Source of the DNA: a virus
Reading direction: 5' to 3' (one strand)
DNA length: 20,507 nt
IMG/VR virus record: IMGVR_UViG_3300035661_001523
Span: 1-20,507 of that record
How positions within the stretch are numbered: the stretch's first letter is position 1; each line of letters opens with the position of its first letter. Shown here piece by piece: positions 3,836-20,445 of the stretch. The notes beneath the pieces are model-generated. The model was not told the origin of the DNA and did no database searches. It saw nothing but the letters and a program-made list of their open reading frames with translations. A program made the position numbers and the translations under genes.

Positions 3836-6451
3836 TTAAGCTAAACTCACTCCGCCACCTTGGTTCTGAATAAGGTAGGTCTCAATTAGTATTTCCGCTG
3901 TCTTTGTAGGAATTAAACTAATATTCATTCTTAGTTCATTGTTTTCGCGGACAAGAGGAGTATTAACATTAGGACCAACATCTACAGTGTATTCTGAAAT
4001 AGCTCCACGACGAAGATGATCCTCTAGAACACTCTCAGCCAACTGCTTAAGCTTCTGAGCGGTAATAGAATCACCAGGCTCAAATTCATAGGAACGTGAG
4101 GCAGAAGCAATAATCTTACGAAGTTTAAGAAGAAGTCTACGAACATTAACTCGATCAAGAGCAGTGGTAGCAGACTGAAGAGTTCTCTGACCCTTTATAT
4201 AAATACCAGCACCAGCCTCAGAATGAATTGGGTTAATCTGGTTTAGAGCAAGAACATCTCTGTCACCCTGTGTTAAATTACGTTCTACAGCAAGAGCTTC
4301 AGTTAAAGAACCGCGAGTACGACCAGCGGGAGCATAGAATACATCTGAAACCTGATCAGTATATGCGTATTGTGCAGCAACTAGACCAGTGGGAGGAACA
4401 AAGATGTCCTTCTTATTAGTAGAATCAGTAATCTTAACCCAGGGATAATACATGGCCGCATAGGAACTGTTAAGATTTAGAATGTTCTTGCGATAATTAA
4501 CCACATTCTGAACACTTAGACCAAAAGGAGAATCGATTAAAGCAATAACATCACCACGTTGTTCAGCAAGAGCAGTCATTGCCTTAGCTACAGAGGGATC
4601 TGCTGACCATCCAGGAACAGAAAGAACGTTAATATCAATCATTTCTGGGTTAGCAAAGGCATAAATACCGGTACGAGCTGACTCAGTACCAATAATATCA
4701 TTCTTAGTTACTACCGTTCCAGCAGAGCCACCAGAGAGATAATCCGTTAAGGTAAGATCATAACCACTAGCGCCCAATACAACTGTGAAACCAGTAGCAG
4801 CACCCTGGCCAGTCTCAGAACTTACGAGAACAGGAGTGTGTACAAGGCCATCACTTAGAAGGACGCTAGGAGTTACAATACCAGTAGTAATATCGACTGA
4901 ATCTGTAGTTGAATAGTCAATTTTTAGAGAAACTCTTCGTGATGAAGAAGTAACCTTTGATTGAATACTTTCAATAGTGCCATCAAACTGTTCAACAAGA
5001 GTAAAGTCAGCTAATCGGTAGGAAGAAGAAGGAATACTAGCGGAATTAATACGCTCATATACCTTTAGAGTATATAACTGTTGCTGGGTAGTAGTTACAT
5101 TAGCGGTATCTAAGGAGAGAGTAACTGCTGTATCACTAGCATCAGCATCACCAAGACTTGTAATCTTGATAATAGTAGGTACATAAATAGAACCAGCTGA
5201 TTCCATTTTCCAGGTAGGACGGTAAGCTGATGTAGTGAACTTACCAGAAAGGGATTGTGGTAGAACGGTTAATCCAGTTCCAACATAATTAGGATAGGTT
5301 GAGATACCAGAAAATCCAGGGAGGACAGAATCTACATGAACTTCAATTACGTTAGCAAGGGAGTCAAGAAGAGTTGAAACACTCTGAATTCCACCGTTAG
5401 CAGAACCGATTCCAAAGGTTCCACCGGCTAACTGGAATTTGATAACTCCAAGCCAAGCAGTTAACTTGGGATAAGAAGAAGTTGCAGAGGCAGCTACATT
5501 ACAGGCGGAAAGAAGGCATGAAATGGCAGCAGCTATTAGATCAAGATTGTAAGAAGATTCTGCTGCCACTAGAGGAAGGGTAATAGTTAAATCTGCAGGG
5601 GCTACACCAACTACAGAAAGAGTGGTTTCTAACTGACTATAATCATTAACTTTTAATGCAGCTAATAGAGCAGTATTCTTGACTCCGGAAGCAGCAATTT
5701 TTATGACCTGGGAATTAGCACAAATACCTAAACTAATGGTAGAAGATACAGCAGCGCCAGTAGAAACAATAGAACCTACAGCATAGGCAGTAGCGGGAGA
5801 ATTGTTCGAAGTAAATGAGGAAACTGGAACCTTAATTGCAGGAGAGCCAGCATTGTCTATAACAGAGGTAATAGTAGCAGAAGTACCTTTACCAGCTCCA
5901 AGGGAAACAGTGAAAATGTTACCAGTAATAGCACCAGGAGTTGATACAAAACTGGCCATATCAGCACCTAATTTACCATTCGCAGGTGCAGTTTGAGCAG
6001 AATCAGTAAAGTTAAATCCAGGAATAACAGTGCCGGCATCTAATTTAACTACTTTATTAGCACCAGTGACCCCAATAGAATCAGAGAGGGTAAAAGTGAG
6101 TTCAGTTGCACTTTGACCCGTAAGAACCCAGTCACCAGCATAATTAGAATAGCCAGAAGGTAAAATGAAAGCATCCTTAGCTGTCTTAGCATCTGAAGGG
6201 CTTACACGATTTACCCAAAGAAAGTTTCCCTTCTTAAGATAAGAAGCAGCAGCATAGCCCATGTAATGCTTTGAGCTAATACCACCAAAAATATCATTAT
6301 ATTCCTGTGGAGAAGTAATTAGAACGGGAGTATTAGTAGGTCCAATTTCTGAAGTGCCTACTAGCCCGAGAATTGTAGAAGATAAGTCACTTACGTACTG
6401 GCTTAAATCCTTTTCTACTGAATAAACACCGGGAGAAACGAACGTGGTCAT
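3836..6451 (-). CDS. Contractile tail sheath protein (gp18-like)
   Basis: An 871-residue sheath subunit; the polymer surrounds the tail tube and contracts to drive it into the host. The N-terminus (TTFVSPGVYSVEKDLSQYV, then LVGTSEIGPTNTPVLI and EYNDIFGG) is the typical sheath start. The C-terminal core from about residue 595 is also typical: NPEMIDINVLSVPGW, RGDVIALIDSPFG, the PWVKI/FVPPTGLVAAQYAYTD segment, YAPAGRTRG, LNQINPIHSEAGAGIYIKG and DRVNVRRLLLKLRK. The 659-residue T4 protein is about 210 residues shorter; the excess lies in a Ser/Thr/Ala-rich middle at about 90-590, likely surface domains. AAAAGGA lies eight nt before the ATG. The gene sits alone between terminators, with an AATTAAATA box 59 nt upstream, as expected for a highly expressed virion gene. 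Confidence 0.95.
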   Translation of the reverse strand: MTTFVSPGVYSVEKDLSQYVSDLSSTILGLVGTSEIGPTNTPVLITSPQEYNDIFGGISSKHYMGYAAASYLKKGNFLWVNRVSPSDAKTAKDAFILPSGYSNYAGDWVLTGQSATELTFTLSDSIGVTGANKVVKLDAGTVIPGFNFTDSAQTAPANGKLGADMASFVSTPGAITGNIFTVSLGAGKGTSATITSVIDNAGSPAIKVPVSSFTSNNSPATAYAVGSIVSTGAAVSSTISLGICANSQVIKIAASGVKNTALLAALKVNDYSQLETTLSVVGVAPADLTITLPLVAAESSYNLDLIAAAISCLLSACNVAASATSSYPKLTAWLGVIKFQLAGGTFGIGSANGGIQSVSTLLDSLANVIEVHVDSVLPGFSGISTYPNYVGTGLTVLPQSLSGKFTTSAYRPTWKMESAGSIYVPTIIKITSLGDADASDTAVTLSLDTANVTTTQQQLYTLKVYERINSASIPSSSYRLADFTLVEQFDGTIESIQSKVTSSSRRVSLKIDYSTTDSVDITTGIVTPSVLLSDGLVHTPVLVSSETGQGAATGFTVVLGASGYDLTLTDYLSGGSAGTVVTKNDIIGTESARTGIYAFANPEMIDINVLSVPGWSADPSVAKAMTALAEQRGDVIALIDSPFGLSVQNVVNYRKNILNLNSSYAAMYYPWVKITDSTNKKDIFVPPTGLVAAQYAYTDQVSDVFYAPAGRTRGSLTEALAVERNLTQGDRDVLALNQINPIHSEAGAGIYIKGQRTLQSATTALDRVNVRRLLLKLRKIIASASRSYEFEPGDSITAQKLKQLAESVLEDHLRRGAISEYTVDVGPNVNTPLVRENNELRMNISLIPTKTAEILIETYLIQNQGGGVSLA

Positions 6452-6589: not shown

Positions 6590-7093
6590 TTATACCCCTG
6601 CTGATAATACTAACTTTGCTTCGTCAATAGAAACGGAGAGAGAAACTTCCTGAACCTGATCACCAGTCTTCCAATCAAGAGCCTGACGAGTAATACTGGT
6701 GGGGAAACAACCAACAAGTAGCCAACTTTCAACTACCGAGTGATCCGGACCATACATAAGTAAAGTAAGATTGCGCTTGTATTGGCCAGGAAAGCCCATT
6801 AATGACGTATTAATGTCATATACTTGTTTCCACCAGTCATCAATCTTTCGGCCAGCCTTGTTATCAACGAAGTCATAGAATTTGAAGTCAACCTTATCAA
6901 ACTTAATCTGAGCGCCAGCTACTTTATACACATTATGCATGCGTGAAATAGGAGTCTCACCAACAGTAAAGGTGGGGATGCTTGCACTATGACAAGTTAG
7001 ACGTAGATCATCGTCAGAAAATAAAACCTCGAACCTATTGAGTGCTTTTGGAAGTTGAACGTTAGAAGTCCAACCCATTAATCGTTCGCTCAT
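6590..7093 (-). CDS. Tail tube protein (gp19-like)
   Basis: A 167-residue inner tube subunit, a normal length for T4 gp19-type proteins. Visible features are the N-terminal MSERLMGWTSNVQLPKALNR, the strand FEVLFSDDDLRLTCHSASIP that leads into the tube barrel, the PISRMHNVYKVAG segment, VDFKFYDFVDN with the following WWKQVYD helix, and the C-terminal strand VQEVSLSVSIDEAKL. AGAGGA stands six nt before the ATG. A promoter box lies 37 nt upstream and a hairpin 25 nt downstream, so the gene is probably its own transcription unit, next to the sheath gene as in most myoviruses. The promoter and leader overlap the end of a decayed endonuclease-like frame (7114-7257). Confidence 0.92.
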   Translation of the reverse strand: MSERLMGWTSNVQLPKALNRFEVLFSDDDLRLTCHSASIPTFTVGETPISRMHNVYKVAGAQIKFDKVDFKFYDFVDNKAGRKIDDWWKQVYDINTSLMGFPGQYKRNLTLLMYGPDHSVVESWLLVGCFPTSITRQALDWKTGDQVQEVSLSVSIDEAKLVLSAGV

Positions 7094-7113
7094 TGTAAAT
7101 CCTCTAAAAATAT

Positions 7114-7257
7114 TCAGTAACTACATACTATATTTAATTCATTTTCTTTTGCTTTGTCTAAAAGAAAGTTATCGAGAGTAGTCAATTCAGTATACGGTAC
7201 CTCTATAAGTTTAATTCCGTTAATTTTACAGTATTCGTTTCTGTATATAAAAACCAA
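7114..7257 (-). pseudogene. 3' remnant of an endonuclease-like gene
   Basis: Between in-frame stops lies a 47-codon frame with no start codon or ribosome binding site. Its product contains YRNEYCKINGIKLIEVPY followed by TELTTLDNFLLDKAKENEL. The pattern (R/K)NxYCKxNGIKLIxVPY resembles the C-terminal signature of phage nucleases of the Vsr-like/EDxHD or related PD-(D/E)xK folds, where KxxYCxxNxIxLIRIPY is typical. Just upstream another frame reads GFYIQKR, which would continue this motif if a frameshift were repaired. The catalytic part is absent. I infer an endonuclease gene that once sat between the repeat array and the tube gene and decayed, leaving its end. The family assignment is tentative; chance coding is possible but the motif is rather specific. 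Confidence 0.42.
7131..7139 (-). promoter_or_regulatory. Candidate late promoter box for tail tube
   Basis: The minus strand reads GAATTAAATATAGTATG, with the AATTAAATA core 37 nt before the tube ATG. It is embedded in the decayed frame at 7114-7257, where it encodes ELNIV near the C-terminus. Confidence 0.55.
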
Positions 7258-7322
7258 TCACTGGCTCTAAATATTCTCTAATGACAGTTAAATATTGTGG
7301 CTTATTTAGTTGTTTTACCACA

Positions 7323-7478
7323 TTATTCCCCAGATTCAATTCCCATATCAGCATTATCAAAGGAAATACTCTTCTTTTTATTTGGTATTACTTTAGTAGC
7401 ATGTTGAGGAGATTTTGTCCCTTTTATAGCCTTATAAAAATCTTTTTTAGTTAGTGGCTTCTTTTTCTTGTTAGTCAT
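7323..7478 (-). CDS. Small lysine-rich hypothetical protein (51 aa)
   Basis: I do not recognise this protein. The first 36 residues are strongly basic (MTNKKKKPLTKKDFYKAIKG, then a KKK run near residue 34). The last 15 are acidic (DNADMGIESGE), so a nucleic-acid or partner-binding tail is imaginable but unproven. AAAGG stands four nt before the ATG. The gene begins 7 nt after the last repeat-family gene, whose stop and AAAGG box match the array's standard junction up to the point where TCAT replaces TTAAATACAA. It is therefore probably the last gene of that operon. It has no repeat unit itself. Confidence 0.6.
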   Translation of the reverse strand: MTNKKKKPLTKKDFYKAIKGTKSPQHATKVIPNKKKSISFDNADMGIESGE

Positions 7479-7485
7479 ATGACCT

Positions 7486-8184
7486 TTATAATCCAAGATC
7501 TTCTTTTATTCTTGGTTGTAATTCTTTTGGTACAAACCATAATGCCCCACCACGTTGTTTTACTGCGGCCATACATATATTGTAATCACGTAATTCTGGT
7601 GGTACCAAAGCTAATGCAAGACTATTTTGTTTTACTGCAACTAAACATATATCTCTATACTCAGGTAATTCTTTTGGTACAAATTCTAATGCTCTACCAT
7701 TTTGTTTTACTGCAGCCATACATATATCATAATCACGTAATTCTTTTGGTATCTGCTCTAATTCCACACCATTTTGTTTTACTACAGCCATACATATATC
7801 TTTATACCCAGGTACTTCTTTTGGTACATACTGTAATGCATAACTATCTTGTTCTACTGCGGCCATACATATATCTTTATACCCAGGTACTTCTTTTGGT
7901 ATATACTGTAATGCATGCATATTTTGTTTTACTGTGTCTATACATATATCTTTATACTCAGGTAATTCTGTTGGTACATACTGTAATGCATACATATTTC
8001 GTTTTACTGCAGCTATACATATAGTATAATCACGTAATTCTTTAGGTACAGACTTTAGTGTATAACCACCTTGTTTTACTAAATCTAATTCAATAGAATA
8101 TATTTTATTCTTTATGGAACTTGGTAGTCTATTTCTGTATAGACTATATATATGATTAAAATAATCTATATCTATTTTTTCCAT
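7486..8184 (-). CDS. DUF4116-like repeat protein, array copy 11
   Basis: 232 residues, last in transcription order. After the cap (MEKIDIDYFNHIYSLYRNRL to about residue 34) come eight units. Types run A-B-B-B-A-B-A plus the terminal unit, where A carries ELRDYxxC (24 residues) and B carries ELPEYKDIC (25 residues). Units 3 and 4 have the variant EVPGYKDIC back to back, suggesting a local unit duplication. Unusual substitutions cluster here (NMYAL, NMHAL, GVELEQ), so this is one of the more diverged copies. It ends KEDLGL. The 51-residue ORF follows after 7 nt. Function unknown. Confidence 0.85.
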   Translation of the reverse strand: MEKIDIDYFNHIYSLYRNRLPSSIKNKIYSIELDLVKQGGYTLKSVPKELRDYTICIAAVKRNMYALQYVPTELPEYKDICIDTVKQNMHALQYIPKEVPGYKDICMAAVEQDSYALQYVPKEVPGYKDICMAVVKQNGVELEQIPKELRDYDICMAAVKQNGRALEFVPKELPEYRDICLVAVKQNSLALALVPPELRDYNICMAAVKQRGGALWFVPKELQPRIKEDLGL

Positions 8185-8190
8185 TTGTAT

Positions 8191-9033
8191 TTAACCTTTA
8201 TAGAATCCAAGCTCTTGTTTTATTCTTGGTTGTAATTCTTCTGGTACAAACTCTAATGCATAACCATTTTGTTTTACTGCTGTTATACATATATTATAAT
8301 CACGTAATTCTTCTGGTACATATTCTAATGCATAACCATTTTGTTTTACTGCTGTTATACACATAGTAGAATCACGTAATTCTGGTGGTACATATTCTAA
8401 TGCCCGCCACTTTTGTTTTACTGCTGTTATACACATAGTATAATCACGTAATTCTTCTGGTACAAACTCTAATGCAAGACCATTTTGTTTTACTGCTGTT
8501 ATACACATATTATAATCACGTAATTCTTTAAGTACAGACTCTAATGCCTCACCATTTTGTTTTACTGCTGTTATACACATATTATAGTCACGTAATTCTT
8601 CTGGTACATACTTTAATGCATAACCAGTTTGTTTTACTGCTGTTATACATATATTATAATCACGTAATTCTTTAGGTACATGCCTTAATGCGTTACCATT
8701 TTGTTCTACTGCAGCCATACATATGTCATAATCACGTAATTCTTCAGGTATAATCTGTAATACATAACCATTTTGTTTTACTGCTATTATACATATATCT
8801 TTATACCTGGGTAGTTCTTCTGGTACAAATCCTAATGCCTCACCATTTTGTTCTACTGCGGTCATACACATATTGTAATCACGTAACTCTTTAGGTACAA
8901 AGCTTAATGTATAACTATCTTGTTTTACTTTATCTAATTCAATAGAATACATTTTATTCTTTATAGAACTTGGTAGTCTATTTCTGTATAGACTATATAA
9001 ATGATCAAAGTAATATGCATCTATTTTTTCCAT
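8191..9033 (-). CDS. DUF4116-like repeat protein, array copy 10
   Basis: 280 residues with ten units, second longest in the family. Only unit 2 is type B (ELPRYKDIC); units 3-9 are all 24-residue A units, many nearly identical (VKQNGYALEYVPEELRDYNI). This homogeneity points to recent expansion by unequal exchange. Unit 8 has VKQKWRALEYVPPELRDS, with Tyr replaced by Ser; the KWRAL core recurs in copy 5. The end reads LGFYKG because a small indel removes the usual stop and lets the frame run through the AAAGG box to the next TAA, placing the ribosome binding site of copy 11 inside this gene. Confidence 0.85.
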   Translation of the reverse strand: MEKIDAYYFDHLYSLYRNRLPSSIKNKMYSIELDKVKQDSYTLSFVPKELRDYNMCMTAVEQNGEALGFVPEELPRYKDICIIAVKQNGYVLQIIPEELRDYDICMAAVEQNGNALRHVPKELRDYNICITAVKQTGYALKYVPEELRDYNMCITAVKQNGEALESVLKELRDYNMCITAVKQNGLALEFVPEELRDYTMCITAVKQKWRALEYVPPELRDSTMCITAVKQNGYALEYVPEELRDYNICITAVKQNGYALEFVPEELQPRIKQELGFYKG

Positions 9034-9045
9034 TTTATTTAACCT

Positions 9046-9738
9046 TTATAATCCAAACTCTTGTTTTATTCTTGCCTGTAATTCTTTAGGTACAAACGCT
9101 AATACATCGCCATCTTGTTTTACTGCTGTTATACACATAGTATAATCACGTAATTCTTCAGGTACATCATCTAATGCAATACCATTTTGATTTACTGCTG
9201 TTATACACATAGTATAATCACGTAATTCTTCAGGTACATATCCTAATACCTCACCATTTTGTTCTACTGCAGCCATACATATATCATAATCACGTGATTC
9301 TTTAGGTATAATCTGTAATACATAACCATTTCGTTTTACTGCTATTATACATATATCTTTATACTCAGGTAATTCTTTAGGTACATAATATAATGCCTCA
9401 CCATTTTGTTTTACTGCGGTCATACATGTATCATAATCACGTAATTCTTTAGGTACAATCTGTAATACATTACCATTTTGATTTACTGCAGCCATACATA
9501 TATCTTTATGCTCAGGTAATTCTTTTGGCACAAACTGTAATGCAGCACCATTTTGTTTCACTGCGGTCATACATATATCATAATCACGTAATTCTTTAGG
9601 TACATGTGCTATTTCATAACCATTTTGTTTTACTTTATCTAATCCAATAGAATACATTTTATTCTTTATAGAACTTGGTAGTCTATTTCTGTATAGACTA
9701 TATAAATGATTAAAATAGCGTGTATTTATTTTTTCCAT
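9046..9738 (-). CDS. DUF4116-like repeat protein, array copy 9
   Basis: 230 residues, eight units in order A-B-A-B-A-A-A plus the terminal unit. The cap is MEKINTRYFNHLYSLYRNRL, sharing the INTRYF start with copy 1. Units 3 and 5 share the rarer VLQI(V/I)P core that also appears in copies 2, 4 and 10, a sign of unit shuffling between genes. Unit 5 has KESRDY in place of KELRDY. The C-terminal cap is KELQARIKQEFGL. The gap to the next gene is 12 nt, holding the standard AAAGG junction with one base changed next to the stop codon of this gene's upstream neighbour. Confidence 0.85.
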   Translation of the reverse strand: MEKINTRYFNHLYSLYRNRLPSSIKNKMYSIGLDKVKQNGYEIAHVPKELRDYDICMTAVKQNGAALQFVPKELPEHKDICMAAVNQNGNVLQIVPKELRDYDTCMTAVKQNGEALYYVPKELPEYKDICIIAVKRNGYVLQIIPKESRDYDICMAAVEQNGEVLGYVPEELRDYTMCITAVNQNGIALDDVPEELRDYTMCITAVKQDGDVLAFVPKELQARIKQEFGL

Positions 9739-9750
9739 TTTATTTAACCT

Positions 9751-10224
9751 TTACAATCCAAGTTCTTGTTTTATTTTTGGTTGTAATTCTTTAGGTACAT
9801 ACTTTAATGTAGAACCATATTGTTTTACTGCTGTTATACACATATTGTAATCACGTAATTCTTCTGGTACAAATTCCAATGCAAAACCATTTTGTTCTAC
9901 TGCGGCCATACATATATTATAATCCCATAAGTCTTTAGGTACATAATGTAATACCTCACTATTTTGTTTTACTGCAGCTATACATATATCTTTATACTCA
10001 GGTAATTCTGTTGGTACACCCTTTAATGCAAAACCATTTTGTTTTACTGCTGTCATACACATAGTATAATCACGTAATTCTTCTGGTACATACTTTAATA
10101 TAGAACCATGTTGTTTTACTTTATCTAATCCAATAGAATACATTTTATTCTTTATAGAACTCGGCAGTCTATTTCTATATATACGGTATATATGATGAAA
10201 ATACTCTATATCTATTTTTTCCAT
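9751..10224 (-). CDS. DUF4116-like repeat protein, array copy 8
   Basis: 157 residues, five units (A-B-A-A plus terminal). Unit 3 carries KDLWDY, a unique Trp in the otherwise invariant ELRDY position. The last 129 nt of the gene (9755-9883) are identical to the end of copy 6 (10807-10935), so the final unit and cap (QYGSTLKYVPKELQPKIKQE) are the same in both. Copy 8 exceeds copy 6 by exactly 24 residues, one unit. The cap has HHIYRIYRNRL where most copies read NH(L/I)YS(L/I)YRNRL. Confidence 0.85.
   Translation of the reverse strand: MEKIDIEYFHHIYRIYRNRLPSSIKNKMYSIGLDKVKQHGSILKYVPEELRDYTMCMTAVKQNGFALKGVPTELPEYKDICIAAVKQNSEVLHYVPKDLWDYNICMAAVEQNGFALEFVPEELRDYNMCITAVKQYGSTLKYVPKELQPKIKQELGL
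9755..9883 (-). repeat. 129-nt exact repeat, first copy
   Basis: The 3' end of array copy 8. By direct reading it is identical over 129 nt to 10807-10935 in copy 6, at an offset of 1052 nt. Confidence 0.9.
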
Positions 10225-10286
10225 TTGTATTTAACCTTTATAACCCAAGCTCTTCTATTATTCTTGACCGTAATTCTGGTGGTACA
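10213..10286 (-). repeat. 74-nt exact repeat at a gene junction, first copy
   Basis: Spans the end of array copy 7, the junction and the start of copy 8. Identical to 11193-11266, at an offset of 980 nt; the difference from 1052 is 72 nt, exactly one repeat unit. Confidence 0.9.
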
Positions 10287-10789
10287 AACTGTCGTAATAT
10301 CGAGCCATTTTGTCTTACTGCTGTTATACACATATTGTAATCACGTAATCCTTTAGGTACATCTATTAATGCTTTACCATTTTGTTTTACTGCAACTAAA
10401 CATATATCTTTATACTCAGGTAATTCTTCAGGTACATAATATAATGCAAGACCGTTTTGATTTACTGCGGTCATACATATATTATAGTCACGTAATCCTC
10501 TAAGTACATACTTTAATGCATAACCATCTTGGTTTACTGCAGCTATACATATATCTTTATACTCAGGTAATTCTTTTGGGACATATTCTACTGCAAAACC
10601 ATCTTGATTTACTGCGGCCATACACATATTGTAATCACGTAATTCTTTAGGTACAAACCGTAATGCATAACCATCTTGATTTACGATATCTAATCCAGTA
10701 GAATACATTTTATTGTTTATAGACCTTGGTAGTCTATTTCTATATATACTATATAAATGCTTAAAATAATATATCTCTATTTTTTCCAT
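10238..10789 (-). CDS. DUF4116-like repeat protein, array copy 7
   Basis: 183 residues, six units (A-B-A-B-A plus terminal). The first four begin VNQ rather than VKQ. Changes from consensus include RSINNKMYSTGLDIV in the cap, VLRGLRDY in unit 3 and VPKGLRDY in unit 5. The terminal unit has one extra residue (ILRQFVPPEL). Its 3' end and junction (10213-10286) are identical to those of copy 5, and the two proteins have the same unit order. That makes them products of one block duplication. Conservative swaps of basic for neutral residues suggest the copy is still under constraint. Confidence 0.85.
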   Translation of the reverse strand: MEKIEIYYFKHLYSIYRNRLPRSINNKMYSTGLDIVNQDGYALRFVPKELRDYNMCMAAVNQDGFAVEYVPKELPEYKDICIAAVNQDGYALKYVLRGLRDYNICMTAVNQNGLALYYVPEELPEYKDICLVAVKQNGKALIDVPKGLRDYNMCITAVRQNGSILRQFVPPELRSRIIEELGL

Positions 10790-10802
10790 TTGTAGTTAAC
10801 CT

Positions 10803-11204
10803 TTATAATCCAAGTTCTTGTTTTATTTTTGGTTGTAATTCTTTAGGTACATACTTTAATGTAGAACCATATTGTTTTACTGCTGTTATACACATATTGT
10901 AATCACGTAATTCTTCTGGTACAAATTCCAATGCATAACCATCTTGTTTTACTGCTGTTATACACATAGTATAATCACGTAATTCTTTTGGAATGTAATC
11001 TCCTAATATATACCCGTATTGTTTTACTGCGGTCATACACATATTGTAATCACGTAATTCTTCAGGTACATATGCTATTTCGTAACCATCTTGTTTTACT
11101 GCATTTAATCCAATAGAATACATTTTATTCTTTATAGAACTTGGTAGTCTATTTCTGTATATACTATATAAATGATTAAAATATGTACTATATATTTTTT
11201 CCAT
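10803..11204 (-). CDS. DUF4116-like repeat protein, array copy 6
   Basis: 133 residues and four units, the shortest member, with only A-type units. Unit 2 has one extra residue (GYILGDYIPKEL). The last unit and cap are shared exactly with copy 8. It shows how few units the family tolerates: cap, three full units and the C-terminal cap KELQPKIKQELGL. The cap begins MEKIYSTYFNHLYSIYRNRL and continues with the standard PSSIKNKMYSIGL. The ATG is preceded by the regular AAAGG junction. Confidence 0.85.
   Translation of the reverse strand: MEKIYSTYFNHLYSIYRNRLPSSIKNKMYSIGLNAVKQDGYEIAYVPEELRDYNMCMTAVKQYGYILGDYIPKELRDYTMCITAVKQDGYALEFVPEELRDYNMCITAVKQYGSTLKYVPKELQPKIKQELGL
10807..10935 (-). repeat. 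129-nt exact repeat, second copy
   Basis: The 3' end of array copy 6, identical to 9755-9883. The two diverge immediately beyond, at a base in the GxxL core of the preceding unit. Confidence 0.9.
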
Positions 11205-11266
11205 TTGTATTTAACCTTTATAACCCAAGCTCTTCTATTATTCTTGACCGTAATTCTGGTGGTACA
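11193..11266 (-). repeat. 74-nt exact repeat at a gene junction, second copy
   Basis: Spans the end of array copy 5, the junction and the start of copy 6. Identical to 10213-10286. Confidence 0.9.
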
Positions 11267-11766
11267 TACTTTAATGCCTCACCATCTTGTTTTACTGCAG
11301 CTATACATATAATATAATCACGTAATTCTCTAGGTACCGAAAATAATGCTCTACCATTTTGTTTTACTGCAACTAAACATATATCTTTATACTCAGGTAA
11401 TTCTTCAGGTGCAAAATATAATGCAAGACCGTTTTGTTTTACTGCAGCTATACATATATCATAATCACGTAATTCTTTAGGTACATACTTTAATGCCTCA
11501 CCATCTTGTGTTACTGCAACTAAACATATATCTTTATACTCAGGTAATTCTTCTGGTACAAACTGTAATGCCCGCCACTTTTGGTTTACTGCGGTCAAAC
11601 ACATATTGTAATCACGTAACTCTTCAGGTACAAATCCTAATGTAACACCATCGTATTTTACTGCGCCTAATCCAATAAAATACATTTTATTCTTTATAGA
11701 ACTTGGTAGTCTATTTCTATATATACTATATAGTTGATCAAAATAATACGCCTTTATTTTTTCCAT
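11218..11766 (-). CDS. DUF4116-like repeat protein, array copy 5
   Basis: 182 residues, six units (A-B-A-B-A plus terminal), sharing order and 3' end with copy 7. The cap departs from the rest: FDQLYS in place of FNHLYS, and MYFIGLGAVKYDG where others read MYSIGLDxVKQ(D/N)G. Unit 2 has NQKWRALQFVPEEL, matching the KWRAL core of copy 10. Both B units end in DICLVA. One unit reads YFAPEEL, with Ala replacing the usual Val before Pro. Terminal cap: PPELRSRIIEELGL. Confidence 0.85.
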   Translation of the reverse strand: MEKIKAYYFDQLYSIYRNRLPSSIKNKMYFIGLGAVKYDGVTLGFVPEELRDYNMCLTAVNQKWRALQFVPEELPEYKDICLVAVTQDGEALKYVPKELRDYDICIAAVKQNGLALYFAPEELPEYKDICLVAVKQNGRALFSVPRELRDYIICIAAVKQDGEALKYVPPELRSRIIEELGL

Positions 11767-11779
11767 TTGTATTTAACCT

Positions 11780-12550
11780 TTATAATCCAAGTTCTTGTTT
11801 TATTTTTGATCGTAATTCTGGTGGTACATCATCTAATGCAAATCTATCTCGTTTTACTGCTGTTATACACATATTATAATCACGTAATTCTTTAGGTACA
11901 AACCTTAAGGCACCACCATTTCGTTTTACTGCGGCCATACATATATCTATATACCCAGGTAATTCTTTAGGTACATGCTCTAATGCATAACCATCTTGTT
12001 TTACTGCGGTCATACATGTATCATAATCACGTAATTCTTTAGGTACAATCTGTAATGCATCACCATTTTGATTTACTGCAACTAAACATATATCTTTATA
12101 CTCAGGTAATTCTTCTGGTACATACTGTAATGCAAGACCATTCTTATTTACTGCGGCCATACATATATCTTTATACTCAGGTAATTCTTCTGGCACATAA
12201 TATAATGCGTTACCATTTTGGTTTACTGCTATCATACACATATTATAATCACGTAATTCTGGGGGTACAAATCCTAATGCATCCCTATCTTGTTTTACTG
12301 CAACTAAACATATATCTGTATACTCAGGTAATTCTTCAGGTACATACTCTAATGCAAGACTATTTCGTTTTACTGCAGCCATACATATATTATAATCACG
12401 TAATTCTTTAGGTACAAACTGTAATGCGGAACCATCTTGGTTTACTTCATCTAATCCAATAAGATACATTTTATTCTTTATAGAACTTGGTAGTCTATTT
12501 CTGTATATGAGGTATATATGATTAAAATAATACGTATCTATTTTTTTCAT
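11780..12550 (-). CDS. DUF4116-like repeat protein, array copy 4
   Basis: 256 residues, nine units in order A-B-A-B-B-A-B-A plus terminal. It begins MKKI rather than MEKI, as does copy 3. The codon change is a single base (plus-strand tttttcat against ttttccat), so the two copies probably share a recent ancestor at their 5' ends. Units 4 and 5 are consecutive B units differing at few positions. Three units start VKR and one VNK. It ends PELRSKIKQELGL, 13 nt before copy 5. Confidence 0.85.
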   Translation of the reverse strand: MKKIDTYYFNHIYLIYRNRLPSSIKNKMYLIGLDEVNQDGSALQFVPKELRDYNICMAAVKRNSLALEYVPEELPEYTDICLVAVKQDRDALGFVPPELRDYNMCMIAVNQNGNALYYVPEELPEYKDICMAAVNKNGLALQYVPEELPEYKDICLVAVNQNGDALQIVPKELRDYDTCMTAVKQDGYALEHVPKELPGYIDICMAAVKRNGGALRFVPKELRDYNMCITAVKRDRFALDDVPPELRSKIKQELGL

Positions 12551-12556
12551 TTGTAT

Positions 12557-13333
12557 TTAACCTTTTAATCCAAGCTCTTGTTTTATTCTTGATCGTAATT
12601 CTGGTGGTACATACTTTAATAGATTATCCTTTTGTTTTACTGCTGTTATACATATATTGTAATCACGTAATTCTGGTGGTACATAATATAATGCACCACC
12701 ATTTTGGGTTACTGCGGCCATGCATATATCTTTATACTCAGGTAATTCTTTAGGTACAGCATCTAATGCATAACCATCTTGAGTTACTGCGGCCATACAC
12801 ATCTTATAATCACGTAATTCTGGTGGTACACTTCCTAATGCCCTACCATCTTGAGTTACTGCGGCTATACATATATCTTTATACTCAGGTAATTCTTTAG
12901 GTACATGCTGTAATGCGTTACTATCTTTATTTACTGCGGTCATACATATGTTATAACCACGTAATTCAGGTGGTACAAAGCTTAACGCAGAGCCCTTTTG
13001 TGTTACTGCAGCCATACATATATCATAATTACGTAATTCTTCAGGTACAAGCTCTAATACATAACCATCTTGTGTTACTGCAGCCATACATATATCTTTA
13101 TACTCAGGTAATTCTGTTGGTACATACTTTAATGCATAGCCATATTGTTTTACTGCTGTTATACACATATTGTAATCACGAAATCTTTCTGGCACAGACT
13201 GTAATCCAATATTGACATAGTGTTTTACTAAATCTATATAAGTAGAATACATTTTATTGTTTATAGAACTTGGTAGTCTATTTCTATATATACTATATAA
13301 ATGATTAAAATAATATGTCTCTATTTTTTTCAT
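12557..13333 (-). CDS. DUF4116-like repeat protein, array copy 3
   Basis: 258 residues, nine units. It starts MKKIETYYFNHLYSIYRNRL. The first unit is the most diverged in the array: HYVNIGLQSVPERFRDY carries a two-residue insertion and RFRDY in place of ELRDY. From unit 3 on, VTQ replaces VKQ in five units, and A and B types mostly alternate. It ends LGLKG because a one-base change at the usual stop extends the frame into the AAAGG box; the next gene starts 6 nt later. Confidence 0.85.
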   Translation of the reverse strand: MKKIETYYFNHLYSIYRNRLPSSINNKMYSTYIDLVKHYVNIGLQSVPERFRDYNMCITAVKQYGYALKYVPTELPEYKDICMAAVTQDGYVLELVPEELRNYDICMAAVTQKGSALSFVPPELRGYNICMTAVNKDSNALQHVPKELPEYKDICIAAVTQDGRALGSVPPELRDYKMCMAAVTQDGYALDAVPKELPEYKDICMAAVTQNGGALYYVPPELRDYNICITAVKQKDNLLKYVPPELRSRIKQELGLKG

Positions 13334-13339
13334 TTGTAT

Positions 13340-13972
13340 TTAACCTTTATAGAATCCAAGCTCTTCTTTTATTTTTGGTTGTAATTCTGGTGGTACCTGA
13401 GATAATGCGTTAGTATTTCGTTCTACTGCAGCTATACATATATCTTTATACTCAGGTAATTCTTTTGGCGCGAACTGTAATGCATAACCATTTTGTTTTA
13501 CTGCTGTTATACACATATTATAATCACGTAATTCTTTAGGTACAATCTGTAATGCATAACCATTTTGTTCTATTGCAGCTATACGTATATCTTTATACTC
13601 AGGCAATTCTGTTGGTACAAACTTTAATGCAAAACCAGTTTGTTTTACTGCGGCCATACATATATCATAATCACGTAATTCTTTTGGTACATAATATAAT
13701 GCGTTACCCTCTTGTTCTACTGCGGTCATACACATATCTTTATACTCAGGTAATTCTGTTGGTACATACTCTACTGCATAACCACTTTGTTTTATTGCAG
13801 CTATACACATATTATAATCGCGTAATTCTTTAGGTACAAACTGTAATGCAGAACCATCTTGTTTTACTGCGTCTAATCCAATAGAATATATTTTATTCTT
13901 TATAGAACTTGGTAGTCTATTTCTATATATAAGGTATATATGATTAAAATACTCTATATCTATTTTTTCCAT
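13340..13972 (-). CDS. DUF4116-like repeat protein, array copy 2
   Basis: 210 residues, seven units alternating strictly A-B-A-B-A-B plus terminal. Unit 4 reads DIRIAA, the only internal unit of the array that lacks the conserved Cys. It ends LGFYKG like copy 10. Its start is unusual: only 2 nt separate the stop of copy 1 from this ATG, and the GGTTAAATAC part of the standard junction is missing, so no Shine-Dalgarno sequence is present. Translation may depend on termination-reinitiation from copy 1. Confidence 0.82.
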   Translation of the reverse strand: MEKIDIEYFNHIYLIYRNRLPSSIKNKIYSIGLDAVKQDGSALQFVPKELRDYNMCIAAIKQSGYAVEYVPTELPEYKDMCMTAVEQEGNALYYVPKELRDYDICMAAVKQTGFALKFVPTELPEYKDIRIAAIEQNGYALQIVPKELRDYNMCITAVKQNGYALQFAPKELPEYKDICIAAVERNTNALSQVPPELQPKIKEELGFYKG

Positions 13973-13974
13973 TT

Positions 13975-14901
13975 TTATAATCCAAGCTCTTCTCGTATTC
14001 TTGGTTGTAATTCTGGTGGTACAGAGTCGAATGCGTTACTGTTTTGTTTTACTGCTGTTATACACATATTGTAATCACGTAATTCTTCTGGTAGTACAAA
14101 TACTAATGCTGTACCATCTTGTTTTACTGCAGCCATACATATATCTTTATACTCAGGTAATTCTGTTGGTACATACTTTAATGCATGGCCATATTGTTTT
14201 ACTGCTGTTATACACATATTGTAATCACGTAATTCTTCTGGTAGTACATATCCTAATGCCGCACCATTTTGTTTTACTGCAGCCATACATATATCTTTAT
14301 ACTCAGGTAATTCTGTTGGTACATACCTTAATGCATGGCCATATTGTGTTACTGCTGTTATACACATAGTATAATCACGTAATTTTGGTGGTACAAACTG
14401 TAATGCATAACCCCGTTGTGTTACTGCGATCATACATATAGTATAATCGCGTAATTCTGGTGGTACAAAATCTAATGCAGCACCATTTTGTTTTACTGCA
14501 GCTATACATATATCTATATACCCAGGTAATTCTTCTGGTACATAATATAATGCTGCACAACCATCTTGTTTTACTGCAGCCATACATAGATCATAATCAC
14601 GTAATTCTTTTGGTATCTTCATTAATGCATAACCATGTCGTGTTACTGCAGCTATACATATATCTTTATACTCGGGTAATTCTTTAGGTACAAACTCTAC
14701 TGCATTACCATCTCGATTTACTGCTGCCATACATATATTATAATCACGTAATTCTTTAGGTACAGACGCTAATGCGTACCTATCTTGTTGGTTTACTTCA
14801 TCTAATCCAATAGAATACATTTTATTCTTTATAGAACTTGGTAGTCTATTTCTGTATATAAGGTATATATGATTAAAATAGCGTGTATTTATTTTTTCCA
14901 T
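13975..14901 (-). CDS. DUF4116-like repeat protein, array copy 1
   Basis: 308 residues, eleven units, the longest member and the first transcribed. I use ATG 14901 (MEKINTRYF), which matches the start of the other ten; a TTG five codons upstream is possible but unsupported. No Shine-Dalgarno sequence is visible before either. Units mostly alternate A and B. Indels appear in unit 1 (NQQDRYAL), unit 4 (GCAALYYV) and in units 8 and 10 (VLPEELRD, one extra Leu). Units 7-8 and 9-10 form a near-identical 150-nt tandem duplication. DUF4116 is the closest family I know: short helical repeats with LxYVPEEL and AVKQNG cores, function unknown. The 403-residue gene ends 22 nt upstream and the two are probably co-transcribed. 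Confidence 0.83.
   Translation of the reverse strand: MEKINTRYFNHIYLIYRNRLPSSIKNKMYSIGLDEVNQQDRYALASVPKELRDYNICMAAVNRDGNAVEFVPKELPEYKDICIAAVTRHGYALMKIPKELRDYDLCMAAVKQDGCAALYYVPEELPGYIDICIAAVKQNGAALDFVPPELRDYTICMIAVTQRGYALQFVPPKLRDYTMCITAVTQYGHALRYVPTELPEYKDICMAAVKQNGAALGYVLPEELRDYNMCITAVKQYGHALKYVPTELPEYKDICMAAVKQDGTALVFVLPEELRDYNMCITAVKQNSNAFDSVPPELQPRIREELGL
14080..14385 (-). repeat. 150-nt tandem duplication inside array copy 1
   Basis: Units 7-8 and 9-10 are near-identical B+A pairs (QYGHAL(R/K)YVPTELPEYK, then a unit with the extra Leu in VLPEELRD). Matching landmarks, for example the GCAGTAAAAC stretch at 14121-14130 and 14271-14280, are exactly 150 nt apart. Edges are approximate. Confidence 0.8.
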
Positions 14902-14923: not shown

Positions 14924-16135
14924 TTACATATGTTCCAAAATAAACTTTTCTATATGTTTAGCCATTGTCTTATTATGGTTATTGGCATATGTTTCTAAAT
15001 ATCCTAAAAAGGTTGGAACAGTAAATAATTCTAATTCATCATTTGTTAAATCTCTTCCTCTGGTATTGTTTGTTAAATAAGACATTACAGAAGCTGCCAT
15101 AGTAGCATTTGATTCGGATTGAGAACCAACTGCCCCGTTAAGATCGCGAATAAGACTGGGAATTGAAACTGTATGTAATGCCCTGTATAGTGAAAGTAAA
15201 GATGCTTCGTCATAAACTTGTAATAGTTTAGAAGGAACTTTATTAAGTATAGTAGCCTCTGGATTCTTCTGGGCTGCTGCTAAAGGTGCTTTAAGCTCTT
15301 CTGGAATATACGATAACTTTTCACCTATTGAAGGGTCTATTGAAGCTAAACTGGGAAATAAAGAAGTAAACTTACTATTAGATTCAGTTCTACCGGAAGT
15401 TTCACTATTAAATACCTGACCGTCTGCTGGATTCCAAATAATTATATCTCCAGTTTCTTTTTTAGTGGATACCGCATATTTAGATTGCCCATGTTTTTGA
15501 AATACAAAAAAATCACCCTGGCCTAAATAATGTCTTACTTGAGCACCAGGAGCATCAAATCCAACACACCAATGAGTATTATGACGCTTATTTGAACATA
15601 ATAACTGTGCCGCCTTTGCCTGTATATCAGTATTACCCATAGGAACCTTCCAAAGACTCCACTCACCAAGCTCTAATATCTTTTTAGCACCTGCATTAAC
15701 ATGTGGCATCTCTTCATTGGATATTCCAATAACACTTTCTTTTTCGTTAACATTAACTTGTTGCTCTAATGCTTGTGTAGTTTTAAACCGAGGAAGATCT
15801 GTTATTTTAGCCTCATATGCCCGTTTTAACAAGGGAATAACACGAACTTCATCTTCATTAATAAGCCAACTAGGAGGAGTACTATATGCAGTATTTGCTA
15901 AAAATAGAGTATATTGTGCTGGACTTTGCTTATCTGGTGACAGCGATTCAAAATACTGTAATTGTTTTCTTAGCTCCTCGTCTGATACGGGAAGATTTTT
16001 ATTGGCCTGCTTCTCTGGTGAGTCAGGTAACACTGGCAGCTTAAACCGAGATTTAATATCTGTAACCAGTCTATTTGTAATAGCTTCTAATAAATAGGCA
16101 AATCTAATAAATTGTATTGGAGATAGTTTTTCCAT
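14924..16135 (-). CDS. Unknown protein with WC-motif domain and one degenerate repeat unit
   Basis: 403 residues from ATG 16135, which has GGAAGGA upstream. A longer frame reaches back to 16210 but would include a terminator hairpin and a promoter box, so I reject that start. Residues about 159-245 form a compact domain: WSLWKVPMGNTDIQAKAAQL, then NTHWCVGFD, HYLGQGDFFVFQK, KYAVSTKKETGDIIIWNPAD. This resembles the 'WC' domain of phage proteins allied to PcfJ-like families, whose function is not settled; I am not certain of it. Residues 274-305 (LSYIPEELKAPLAAAQKNPE and on to VPSKLL) align with the array's repeat core. The C-terminal 100 residues are helical. It heads the transcription unit containing the eleven repeat genes. 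Confidence 0.72.
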   Translation of the reverse strand: MEKLSPIQFIRFAYLLEAITNRLVTDIKSRFKLPVLPDSPEKQANKNLPVSDEELRKQLQYFESLSPDKQSPAQYTLFLANTAYSTPPSWLINEDEVRVIPLLKRAYEAKITDLPRFKTTQALEQQVNVNEKESVIGISNEEMPHVNAGAKKILELGEWSLWKVPMGNTDIQAKAAQLLCSNKRHNTHWCVGFDAPGAQVRHYLGQGDFFVFQKHGQSKYAVSTKKETGDIIIWNPADGQVFNSETSGRTESNSKFTSLFPSLASIDPSIGEKLSYIPEELKAPLAAAQKNPEATILNKVPSKLLQVYDEASLLSLYRALHTVSIPSLIRDLNGAVGSQSESNATMAASVMSYLTNNTRGRDLTNDELELFTVPTFLGYLETYANNHNKTMAKHIEKFILEHM

Positions 16136-16169: not shown

Positions 16170-16178
16170 GAGTAAAAT

Positions 16179-16204
16179 AATAGATCCCATTGAAGGGATC
16201 TATT
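16179..16204 (-). terminator. Terminator hairpin after the 46-aa ORF
   Basis: A perfect ten-pair stem, AATAGATCCC with GGGATCTATT, encloses a six-nt loop and is followed by ATTTTACTC on the minus strand. The T-run is short, so termination may be partial. It begins 35 nt beyond the 46-aa ORF. Confidence 0.68.
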
Positions 16205-16239
16205 AACCAAGAGCTAATATTAACAAAATAAATGAGGGT

Positions 16240-16389: not shown

Positions 16390-17091
16390 TTAGCTGGGTA
16401 AGTAAAGTCCACTAGCAGTAATTCTAACACCAGATTCAATACCATTCTGTACTAATACATCATCAATCAATTCAATCTTTAAAGGTGATCCAGAAGGTCT
16501 ATAAGTGGGTGCAGTCTTGGTCATAAGGGTTAAAACATCACCAAACATAATATCTAATTTAGTATGGAACTCTTCAAGAGTACCATTGTTCTCAATAATA
16601 AAGTCATAACGCTCATAAGTATCCATATCTAATTCAGAAGCATGATTTAACTTATCATAATCAGCTCCTCTGGATAAACGGACCTCGTCAGAAGCTTGAA
16701 TTTTAATAACTGGAATATTTCGTTCTTTACAGGCATCCATTTCATTAGCAAAACGAGCGTCACCAATCATAACAGTCTTATCGGAATGATAGCATTCTAT
16801 GTCACCAAAAAGCTTATTGATCCATACATTAGGGTTCTTCGCTCGTCCATAGTCAGTACCTATATACTGTAGAAGACCTCTGTCTTTTTCAACAGGAAAT
16901 CCACAATATGTCTGAATTGTCTTACAAAGGGTATACAAAGGATCGGCAAAATTGATGACGAAAGCACTGTTATTAAAGTACTTCTCATTCAGATACTTCA
17001 TTGCTTCTTCTTTACCACTTCTCATTTTACCTGAAAAGGCCAATCTTAAGCTGCTTCCAGTACGTGAAGGCGGTAGAATAATGGAACTCAT
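16390..17091 (-). CDS. Deoxynucleoside monophosphate kinase (T4 gp1-like)
   Basis: A 233-residue P-loop kinase that would transfer phosphate from ATP to dNMPs and feed phage DNA synthesis. The phosphate-binding loop is FSGKMRSGKEEA (residues 19-30); Glu after the lysine replaces the usual Ser/Thr, while T4 gp1 has Asp there. Other family marks are FADPLY (48-53), LLQYIGTDYGR with NPNVW (73-90), IGDARFANEMD (109-119), HASELDMD (149-156) and YDFIIENNG near 162-170. The ATG overlaps the stop of the HNH gene as ATGA, with AAGGA six nt upstream inside that gene's last codons. The C-terminal 40 residues are not recognised. Confidence 0.82.
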   Translation of the reverse strand: MSSIILPPSRTGSSLRLAFSGKMRSGKEEAMKYLNEKYFNNSAFVINFADPLYTLCKTIQTYCGFPVEKDRGLLQYIGTDYGRAKNPNVWINKLFGDIECYHSDKTVMIGDARFANEMDACKERNIPVIKIQASDEVRLSRGADYDKLNHASELDMDTYERYDFIIENNGTLEEFHTKLDIMFGDVLTLMTKTAPTYRPSGSPLKIELIDDVLVQNGIESGVRITASGLYLPS

Positions 17092-18605: not shown

Positions 18606-18729
18606 ATTAAAGTAGCCCCTATAGTTAATTCTAAAAGACATGAGCCGTTAGATACTTACCTTCCATGTTTGCTTTCCACAATCCCACAGGCGGAACTTTC
18701 CAAGTAATATGGTAGCTTCATATTCAGTA

Positions 18730-18804: not shown

Positions 18805-20445
18805 TTAACCGAATACAGTGGTGTCATAAAGGTTATTGACAGTTAGTACACCGAGACCATAGGAACCGTCGAGAAGCGGCTGATGATCGTACCTTTGTTG
18901 CAAACCGACGACAGAGCTGAAGATATCTCCAGAGCGTACATCAATTGAAGGAGGAGTAAGGTATGTCACAAAGGGGAAGTAAGCATAAGGAGCCTTAGCA
19001 AGATCCTTTGAAGAGAAGCCCATTAGAATACGATCTGAGAAGGGGAACTGAGGAGCCTTAGCAACGGTGAAGTTGTTTACGGTACCAAACTTATCAGCCT
19101 GGACATCGAAAGTACCCTGAGCCTTATGGTCAACAGAGTTCATGCGGAATTCCTGGGTATTCTGGAGTAGAGTAAAGACGTGAGGATGGGTAATAGCGAA
19201 CATACCCTCACCACGCAGGAAGTCAATGCTCATGTCATTGGCTAGATAGTTCATGCGGTGAACGAGTTCCTGGTTCTTCTGGAAAGTAGTACCATGGAAA
19301 GTAGTTGAAGGATACTTGGCATCATAAGCACTAGTCTTACCGGCATTATTCATCATGGCTAGCATGATTTCAAGGTCGATTTCAAGGGCCATTGATTCAG
19401 TCATACCTGAAACTAGTTCCTTCAGAGCGTCAAGCTTGCCTTCAGAGTAAGCTTCGAGATCCTGAATAGCTTCAGCAGAGATCTGAGCGAAGTTCTTACG
19501 GCTCTTAGCAACAGCATTGATAGTGCTCATCTTGAATGAGATTTCAGACATGTTAGCATTACGTTCCTGGTTGTATGAATAACCAAATTCATACTTATAA
19601 CCAGTGTAGTCAGTTGCAGCCTGACCGGGAGCCTGAGCTGAGAAGGCAGCAATAATAATAGCGTTATCACCAGCAGCAGGAGTCCAGGTAGGAGTTGCAC
19701 CAGTTACGGAACCAGTACCAGTAATGGAACCAGCAGCAACTAGGGTAGCGCCTGACTGAGTGGCAACTACTAGACGAACGCGAGGATCCACGTTAAGAAC
19801 AGCAGACACAACAATGCTATTAGGAACAAGAGCATCGCCAGCCACACCATTGGGGAAAGTACCGTAACTAAGAGCAGTAGCAGGTACCGCAGTGTTACTT
19901 GTAGGAGTGCGAAGTTCAGTTACCTTCTGTGAAGAGTAGAAGGCATCAAAGTTAGTGCCATTCTTATACTGCTTCTGACCAGCAGGGGACTTGAAACCGT
20001 AACCACTAGGATCGAAGAATTCGTCGCCAACACTTGAACCATCCTTAGCGGTATTCTTACTAAGACGGAAGGTCTGAATGAGCTGGGTAGGAACATCTAG
20101 CTGACGAGTTGCAATGAACTTGGTAGCTACAATCTGTGGGAATACACGAGTGATAATAGTGGGAAGCATTGCCTTGTTGTAACCACCAGCGCCTAGAGCA
20201 GTCTGACCAGAAGTCGTGGCTTCAGTTAGTGGACTCTGACGTGAAGCATACTGAAGCGACTTTACAGCGTGAAGTAGTACAGTATTACGGAAGTCCTTGT
20301 CAGCAATTACGCCCTCAAGATTTTCGTTAAAGGTCTTCCAGAAGGAAGCCTTACCAGCCTTTTTAGCAGCTTCTTCGTCTCGAGCAAGAATCTTACGAAC
20401 AACTTCCTCATGTAGGGGTTCTAAATTTCCGGGATTGTTAAACAT
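18805..20445 (-). CDS. Major capsid protein (gp23-like, HK97 fold)
   Basis: A 546-residue capsid subunit. The N-terminal 75 residues are charged and helical, as in scaffold-like delta domains. A candidate prohead protease site L73-T-E75|A76 fits the (L/I)xE consensus of T4-type processing and would leave 471 residues. The core begins MLPTIITRVFPQIVATKFIA and continues with the LIQTFRLSK strand. A Ser/Thr/Ala-rich insertion at about 200-285 is probably exposed. Then come EISFKMSTINAVAKSRKNFA and AEAIQDLEAYSEGKLDALKE, the classic gp23 spine-helix region. AGGAG stands nine nt before the ATG. G+C looks higher than in the repeat genes, as expected for a strongly expressed gene. The 62 nt upstream hold no exact AATTAAATA box. 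Confidence 0.93.
   Translation of the reverse strand: MFNNPGNLEPLHEEVVRKILARDEEAAKKAGKASFWKTFNENLEGVIADKDFRNTVLLHAVKSLQYASRQSPLTEATTSGQTALGAGGYNKAMLPTIITRVFPQIVATKFIATRQLDVPTQLIQTFRLSKNTAKDGSSVGDEFFDPSGYGFKSPAGQKQYKNGTNFDAFYSSQKVTELRTPTSNTAVPATALSYGTFPNGVAGDALVPNSIVVSAVLNVDPRVRLVVATQSGATLVAAGSITGTGSVTGATPTWTPAAGDNAIIIAAFSAQAPGQAATDYTGYKYEFGYSYNQERNANMSEISFKMSTINAVAKSRKNFAQISAEAIQDLEAYSEGKLDALKELVSGMTESMALEIDLEIMLAMMNNAGKTSAYDAKYPSTTFHGTTFQKNQELVHRMNYLANDMSIDFLRGEGMFAITHPHVFTLLQNTQEFRMNSVDHKAQGTFDVQADKFGTVNNFTVAKAPQFPFSDRILMGFSSKDLAKAPYAYFPFVTYLTPPSIDVRSGDIFSSVVGLQQRYDHQPLLDGSYGLGVLTVNNLYDTTVFG

Follow-up and report, generated by a model that had tools for sequence, protein, structure and literature searches.

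The window analysed here is the whole of IMG/VR record IMGVR_UViG_3300035661_001523, a 20.5 kb stretch of 20,507 nucleotides. On its minus strand the genes follow the order major capsid protein (Gp23), sigma-like factor, HNH endonuclease, deoxynucleoside monophosphate (dNMP) kinase, a small ORF, a gene here called gpX, an array of DUF4116 (PF13475) genes, tail tube, tail sheath and two further ORFs (Table 1). The phage is a T4-like tailed phage, with a Gp23 capsid, a gp18-type sheath and a gp19-type tube; the score of the tube for PF06841, 27.5 bits, falls slightly below the 28.2 cut-off. A preliminary description of this DNA placed the array between capsid and tail genes, which is correct in outline, but the genes from the sigma-like factor to gpX intervene. 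A terminator-like hairpin lies between gpX with its array and the genes upstream of them; four terminator-like sites were found versus 4.6 expected in shuffles, and the hairpin alone is no evidence. T4-type late promoters (TATAAATA) were not enriched, and promoter-like matches stayed at chance level.

Table 1 Features of the window, with positions in the 20,507-nucleotide stretch
Feature	Position	Strand	Remarks
Major capsid protein (Gp23)	18805..20445	-	PF07068, 103 bits
dNMP kinase	16390..17091	-	Upstream flank
Terminator-like hairpin	16178..16205	-	Between upstream genes and gpX + array
gpX	14924..16135	-	403 aa from ATG; adjoins array
D1	13975..14901	-	308 aa, 10 units; first gene in array
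D2	13340..13972	-	210 aa, 6 units; structure predicted
D3	12557..13333	-	258 aa, 8 units
D4	11780..12550	-	256 aa, 8 units
D5	11218..11766	-	182 aa, 5 units
D6	10803..11204	-	133 aa, 3 units; shares identical block with D8
D7	10238..10789	-	183 aa, 5 units
D8	9751..10224	-	157 aa, 4 units; nearest to second DUF4116 gene of L010
D9	9046..9738	-	230 aa, 7 units
D10	8191..9033	-	280 aa, 9 units
D11	7486..8184	-	232 aa, 7 units; last gene in array
Small Lys-rich ORF	7323..7478	-	51 aa; kept between kinase and tube in relatives
HNH homing-type endonuclease remnant	7094..7354	-	Start and end survive, middle deleted
Tail tube protein (gp19-like)	6590..7093	-	Downstream flank; PHROG tube
Tail sheath protein	3836..6451	-	PF04984, 64 bits; PHROG sheath

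The array (7486-14901) consists of eleven intact ORFs of 133 to 308 codons, arranged head to tail with gaps of 2-13 nt. They are paralogues, as first described, 64-71% identical to copy 1 (about 30% amino acid divergence), and they have in common an N-cap, MEKIxxxYFNHLYSIYRNRLPSSIKNKMYS, and a C-cap, VPPELQPRIKQELGL. Full units number 72 over the eleven genes, 46 of type A (24 residues, VPxELRDYxxCxxAVKQxGxALxx) and 26 of type B (25 residues, VPxELPEYKDICxxAVKQxGxALxx). Their number differs between genes as had been noted, but runs from 3 to 10, and the earlier range of 4-11 is obtained if the N-cap's partial unit is added. Most D genes are served by the same near-identical spacer with a ribosome-binding sequence, TATAAAGGTTAAATA.AATG, for which eight matches were found versus 0.08 expected by chance. 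Long plus-strand ORFs across this region arise from the antisense reading of the repeat.

The suggested family assignment was borne out by profile search. The window contains 49 PF13475 matches, every one inside the array (best E 2e-18), the three D proteins scanned score 91, 163 and 263 bits at a curated gathering cut-off of 24.9, and 14 control genomes gave no match; the D proteins thus belong to DUF4116, a family that carries no functional assignment. An alpha-solenoid has already been predicted for this family (PMC8078820), with which the fold of the array proteins agrees: an AlphaFold2 model of D2, based on an alignment of the eleven paralogues and the L010 gene, is a continuous helical solenoid with a mean pLDDT of 92.5 and two helices per unit, the first about 10 residues long and the second 6. 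The DUF4116 proteins of the array are accordingly modeled as alpha-solenoids of two-helix units, as the preliminary description had anticipated. With Foldseek, no solved relative of the D2 model was found at E < 0.001; LIC12234, a weak PDB sequence match (E 0.056), was not confirmed by the fold search. Matches among viral models (BFVD) are DUF4116 proteins, mostly from giant viruses, some of them carrying F-box or protein-kinase domain annotations. Fusions to F-box and kinase domains are typical of substrate-recognition modules.

Variation among the units is concentrated at a few positions. Nei-Gojobori counts over the 72 units, treated as independent although they are not, give a pooled pS of 0.225, whereas pN reaches 0.64, 0.57 and 0.44 at unit positions 20, 23 and 24, which are three of the six second-helix residues in the model. 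For these positions together the ratio of combined pN to pooled pS is 2.44 (gene-bootstrap 2.29-2.61), and since neutral pN should not exceed pS, this excess bears the mark of diversifying selection. At the core positions 2, 8, 11, 14 and 15, pN is 0.01-0.03, and most scaffold codons are nearly fixed (position 14 is GCA in all 46 type A units). As judged from codon counts, purifying selection acts on the scaffold of the unit, and positions 20, 23 and 24 are diversified beyond the synonymous level. The changes are unlike the adenine-only mutagenesis expected in the target of a diversity-generating retroelement: the variable codons here differ at all three bases, and E, K, Q, R and W are among the residues they specify.

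The same position stands out elsewhere: in four other DUF4116 sets, no residue varies more than the equivalent of position 20. Mycoplasmopsis cynos has four lipoprotein-like genes in tandem, where pN is 0.63 and 0.53 at the equivalents of positions 20 and 23, with a pS of 0.28; the position is again the most variable in units from Alistipes together with Pseudoalteromonas phage Slicky01, and in two arrays from other phages. In these arrays, pN at the position-20 equivalent exceeds pS in one, G100 (0.61 and 0.47), and does not in the other, G073 (0.58 and 0.62), the latter being the exception among four data sets analysed by codon, as the other three have pN > pS. Between D8 and the closest gene of L010, 7 of 12 variable residues differ (58%) versus 18 of 85 scaffold residues (21%). 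The adjoining tube is 98% identical in that comparison.

Two other readings of these positions have to be weighed. With its short helices and its two to three variable residues in each unit, the repeat recalls PPR and TAL repeats, and the D proteins might in the same manner read RNA or DNA; this we hold to be highly improbable, because six of the eleven D proteins are acidic (pI 5.1-5.5) and the variable residues, which include Tyr, Glu, Leu, Phe and Asn, form no small code-like set. Alternatively, the D proteins may themselves be what a bacterial defence or a rival phage recognises, their diversity serving as decoy or escape from recognition. A few diversifying positions combined with fast turnover would look alike in that case, but one changed copy would suffice for escape, and eleven different copies are more easily understood as a repertoire; we consider an origin in escape improbable.

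The array also carries marks of exchange between its members. Exact blocks are common to non-adjacent genes (129 nt in D6/D8, 69 nt in D5/D7 and 63 nt in D1/D3), and the nearest relatives of single units are scattered across the array, a pattern such as recombination and gene conversion would produce. In T4-like phages, anti-defence genes are known to be amplified through recombination, as described for tifA (PMC9391042), and the homing endonuclease SegB promotes the amplification of anti-defence genes (PMC13096335). Like the array, these amplifications are tandem copies in a T4-like phage beside a homing-endonuclease gene; they differ in being recent identical copies that raise dosage, whereas the array copies have diverged at selected positions. 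By analogy, an endonuclease-promoted route similar to that of SegB is plausible for this array.

Relatives of the phage were collected through capsid and tube searches of viral contigs. In contig 3300004805_000008, with tube, capsid and sheath 95%, 78% and 77% identical to those of the window, the kinase gene is followed by the small Lys-rich gene and then by the tube gene, without the array and without gpX. DUF4116 is likewise absent from 13 further relative contigs, some of which are short fragments (14 relative contigs in all). The nearest relative, L010 (tube 98% identical), has two DUF4116 genes, one with 2 units and one with 4, a copy number to be read with the qualification that L010 is a short metagenome contig in which a longer array may have collapsed. 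Its order is the last gpX codons at the contig start, the two DUF4116 genes, the small gene, a 567-aa HNH endonuclease, of which the window retains only a decayed remnant at 7094-7354, and the tube; a TnpB-like ORF lies nearby. The survey of copy numbers called for in the preliminary description thus yields 0, 2 or 11 among phages with 95-98% identical tubes. The array is an accessory insertion that sits cleanly between the kinase gene and a small conserved gene; gpX is the first gene of the inserted block, and the small Lys-rich ORF its downstream edge. The array is not an assembly duplication, because the D copies differ in about 30% of their amino acids. This, with the copy numbers of none and two in close relatives and an array of another lineage assembled in two datasets (see below), counters the earlier concern that the locus might be an artefact.

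For gpX, the start probably lies at 16135, past the hairpin; a longer ORF of 428 aa, beginning with TTG at 16210, overlaps the hairpin. The last codons of gpX adjoin DUF4116 genes in L010 as well. No sequence relative of gpX was found in phages, plasmids or viral contigs, and its structure model is poor (pLDDT 64) and gave no fold match. A weak resemblance to a common phage domain, here termed WCT, was seen at the (N/G)TxWC block (12.4 bits versus at most 9.2 in 3000 shuffles). In PHROG 17056, fusions of a WCT domain with DUF4116 occur in Salicola phage SCTP-2 (gp45) and Agrobacterium phage Atu_ph07 (AUZ95153); there the NTxWC domain and DUF4116 are parts of one protein, whereas gpX and the D genes are separate. 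A general partnership of the two domains was looked for and not found, DUF4116 occurring in 0 of 50 WCT-domain phage contigs. The first 30 residues of gpX resemble the array N-cap, which is suggestive only (15 of 5000 shuffles were equally good), and a degenerate DUF4116 unit near its end, above all 300 shuffles but at 3.1 bits, is not claimed. A functional link between gpX and the array is possible.

Beyond this phage, DUF4116 is present in 6 of 50,697 records of named phages, among them Slicky01, in which three small DUF4116 genes lie in tandem with their own caps. A scan of viral contigs with D10 as single-protein query found nothing, and a genome-contig scan returned one distant Spirochaetia protein. 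Larger arrays were recovered by scanning viral contigs for QTPEIC-type units and counting PF13475 matches: about 13 tandem capped genes in a 145 kb contig, both ends of which lie inside the array; 18 in a 181 kb contig; and 17 of those 18 again, with matching gene sizes, in a contig of 257 kb that belongs to a separate dataset, one gene being truncated where the stretch examined ends (IMG/VR 3300033149_003588, 3300028549_001062 and 3300028584_000450). A giant-virus origin of these contigs was rejected, as they have no NCLDV capsid and most have a terminase. The other phage arrays and Slicky01 resemble the array of the window in their tandem genes, shared caps and most variable position, with 2 to 13 units per gene, and differ from it in cap sequences, in their QTPEICLAAVKQNG-type units and in neighbourhood. 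On the evidence of these contigs, capped tandem DUF4116 arrays are established in several phage lineages, and not through one recent transfer, because the caps differ too much. As had been stated at the outset, no published phage system of such arrays was found in the DUF4116 literature searched, nor were hypervariable positions or capped multigene phage arrays described in it; the array is, with about 13 and 18 genes elsewhere, not unique.

These comparisons bear on a role in the virion, in which the solenoids would decorate head or tail or gauge length, their different lengths fitting different positions or variable cell surfaces. The D genes are co-oriented between the kinase/capsid and tube/sheath genes, the Mycoplasmopsis DUF4116 proteins begin like surface lipoproteins, so that the fold can evidently be displayed on a surface, and a DUF4116 gene of Atu_ph07 is found close to one with a capsid-protein annotation. 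Relatives that share the capsid and sheath and have a tube 54-98% identical, however, have no array or two copies, and the arrays of other phages lie away from virion genes, beside AAA/VWA, sugar-nucleotide, GmrSD-like and PRPP-synthase genes; moreover, a length gauge would need neither eleven lengths nor hypervariable residues. The ruler or decoration of the preliminary description is therefore not supported, and a virion role in general is unlikely, if not negligibly so. Still less credible is a selfish or neutral tandem repeat, i.e., a dispensable gene expanded by slippage and a homing endonuclease with no selected function. Repeats do recombine, and an endonuclease and the TnpB-like ORF are near in L010, but every one of the eleven reading frames is open, the scaffold shows purifying selection, the ribosome-binding spacer is kept in most genes, and capped arrays recur in unrelated phages, all of which makes such a repeat very unlikely.

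The explanation we favour, and to which we give about an even chance, is that the D genes form an accessory multigene family encoding soluble alpha-solenoid binders, a fast-evolving repertoire directed at host or rival-phage targets and expanded by recombination. The solenoid, the pN excess, the insertion, the shared blocks, the HNH gene and its remnant, the arrays in unrelated phages and the F-box/kinase fusions were counted for it. The variable residues would line a binding surface, making each gene a binder of its own specificity; inside the infected cell the D proteins would engage proteins of the host or of rival phages, most likely serving as adaptors for counter-defence or takeover; and new copies and unit orders would arise through recombination between repeats, perhaps promoted by an endonuclease. 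PADLOC gave stray weak matches only, with no convincing defence relation. Of the roles first proposed, the exchangeable host-facing or counter-defence adaptor fits best and is strengthened by the hypervariable positions, while its targets are ones that we infer. The uniqueness and virion placement of the array are less telling than was held, and its selection pattern and recurrence are more interesting.

The findings suggest a type of phage gene set not described before. Sets of 11, about 13 and 18 genes occur in phages unrelated to one another, so that they probably serve in a fast-changing conflict. More tentatively, and with some doubt, tailed phages may carry expandable, capped repertoires of modular binders whose specificity is determined by two to three residues in each 24-residue unit. 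Such a repertoire would be a phage counterpart of diversified repeat-protein receptors, with recombination and diversifying selection adapting it to changing host defences or rival phages. DUF4116 is widespread, and the present data suggest a role for it as a modular repeat for binding, in which the specificity residues can be identified; should the targets prove to be defence proteins, the arrays would be a source of new defence systems and binders.

Beside the tube gene, the window holds a remnant of an HNH endonuclease gene in which, relative to a single long ORF of L010 (the contig of the nearest relative), the middle is deleted and both ends are kept, and L010 itself carries, directly after its tube gene, a TnpB/IS605 OrfB-like ORF with no counterpart in the window. 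At the site corresponding to the sigma-factor-like gene, the close relative L012, which lacks the array, has a 163-aa ORF that matches none of the window proteins.

Coordinates of features in the window and in compared stretches
Feature	Location	Remark
Decayed HNH homing-type endonuclease gene	window 7094-7354	compared with 567-aa ORF of L010
TnpB/IS605 OrfB-like ORF	L010 3420-4445	likeness by eye, zinc-finger CxxC pattern
Sigma-factor-like gene	window 17694-18641	adjoins capsid gene
Tandem DUF4116 genes, at least 4	L032 6081-16759	Mycoplasmopsis cynos
Several DUF4116-like genes	L041 6777-11690 = MF360958 418776-423689	Salicola phage SCTP-2

Contig G073, a 145 kb phage contig, has both of its ends (L132 and L134) inside its DUF4116 array, as would result from circularity or from a break within the repeat. 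In three further phage contigs (G075, G100 and G107; stretches L135, L166 and L173), DUF4116 arrays occur together with a terminase match that continues across 1-3 in-frame TAA codons; a frame break, an intron or recoding of the codon would each account for this. An unnamed phage domain (L046-L131; pattern SCYYGxGTKWCT...YYxxxxK...YKxA) is very common, with at least 572 stretches in IMG/VR, and the one SCTP-2 member tested gives no Pfam match.

The DUF4116-like genes of SCTP-2 are strongly diverged and dispersed, with small unrelated genes in between. Those of Mycoplasmopsis cynos encode lipoprotein-like signal peptides, and their units are hypervariable at the same positions as in the window array; these two features, found in tandem genes, suggest that the Mycoplasmopsis cynos proteins are variable surface proteins.
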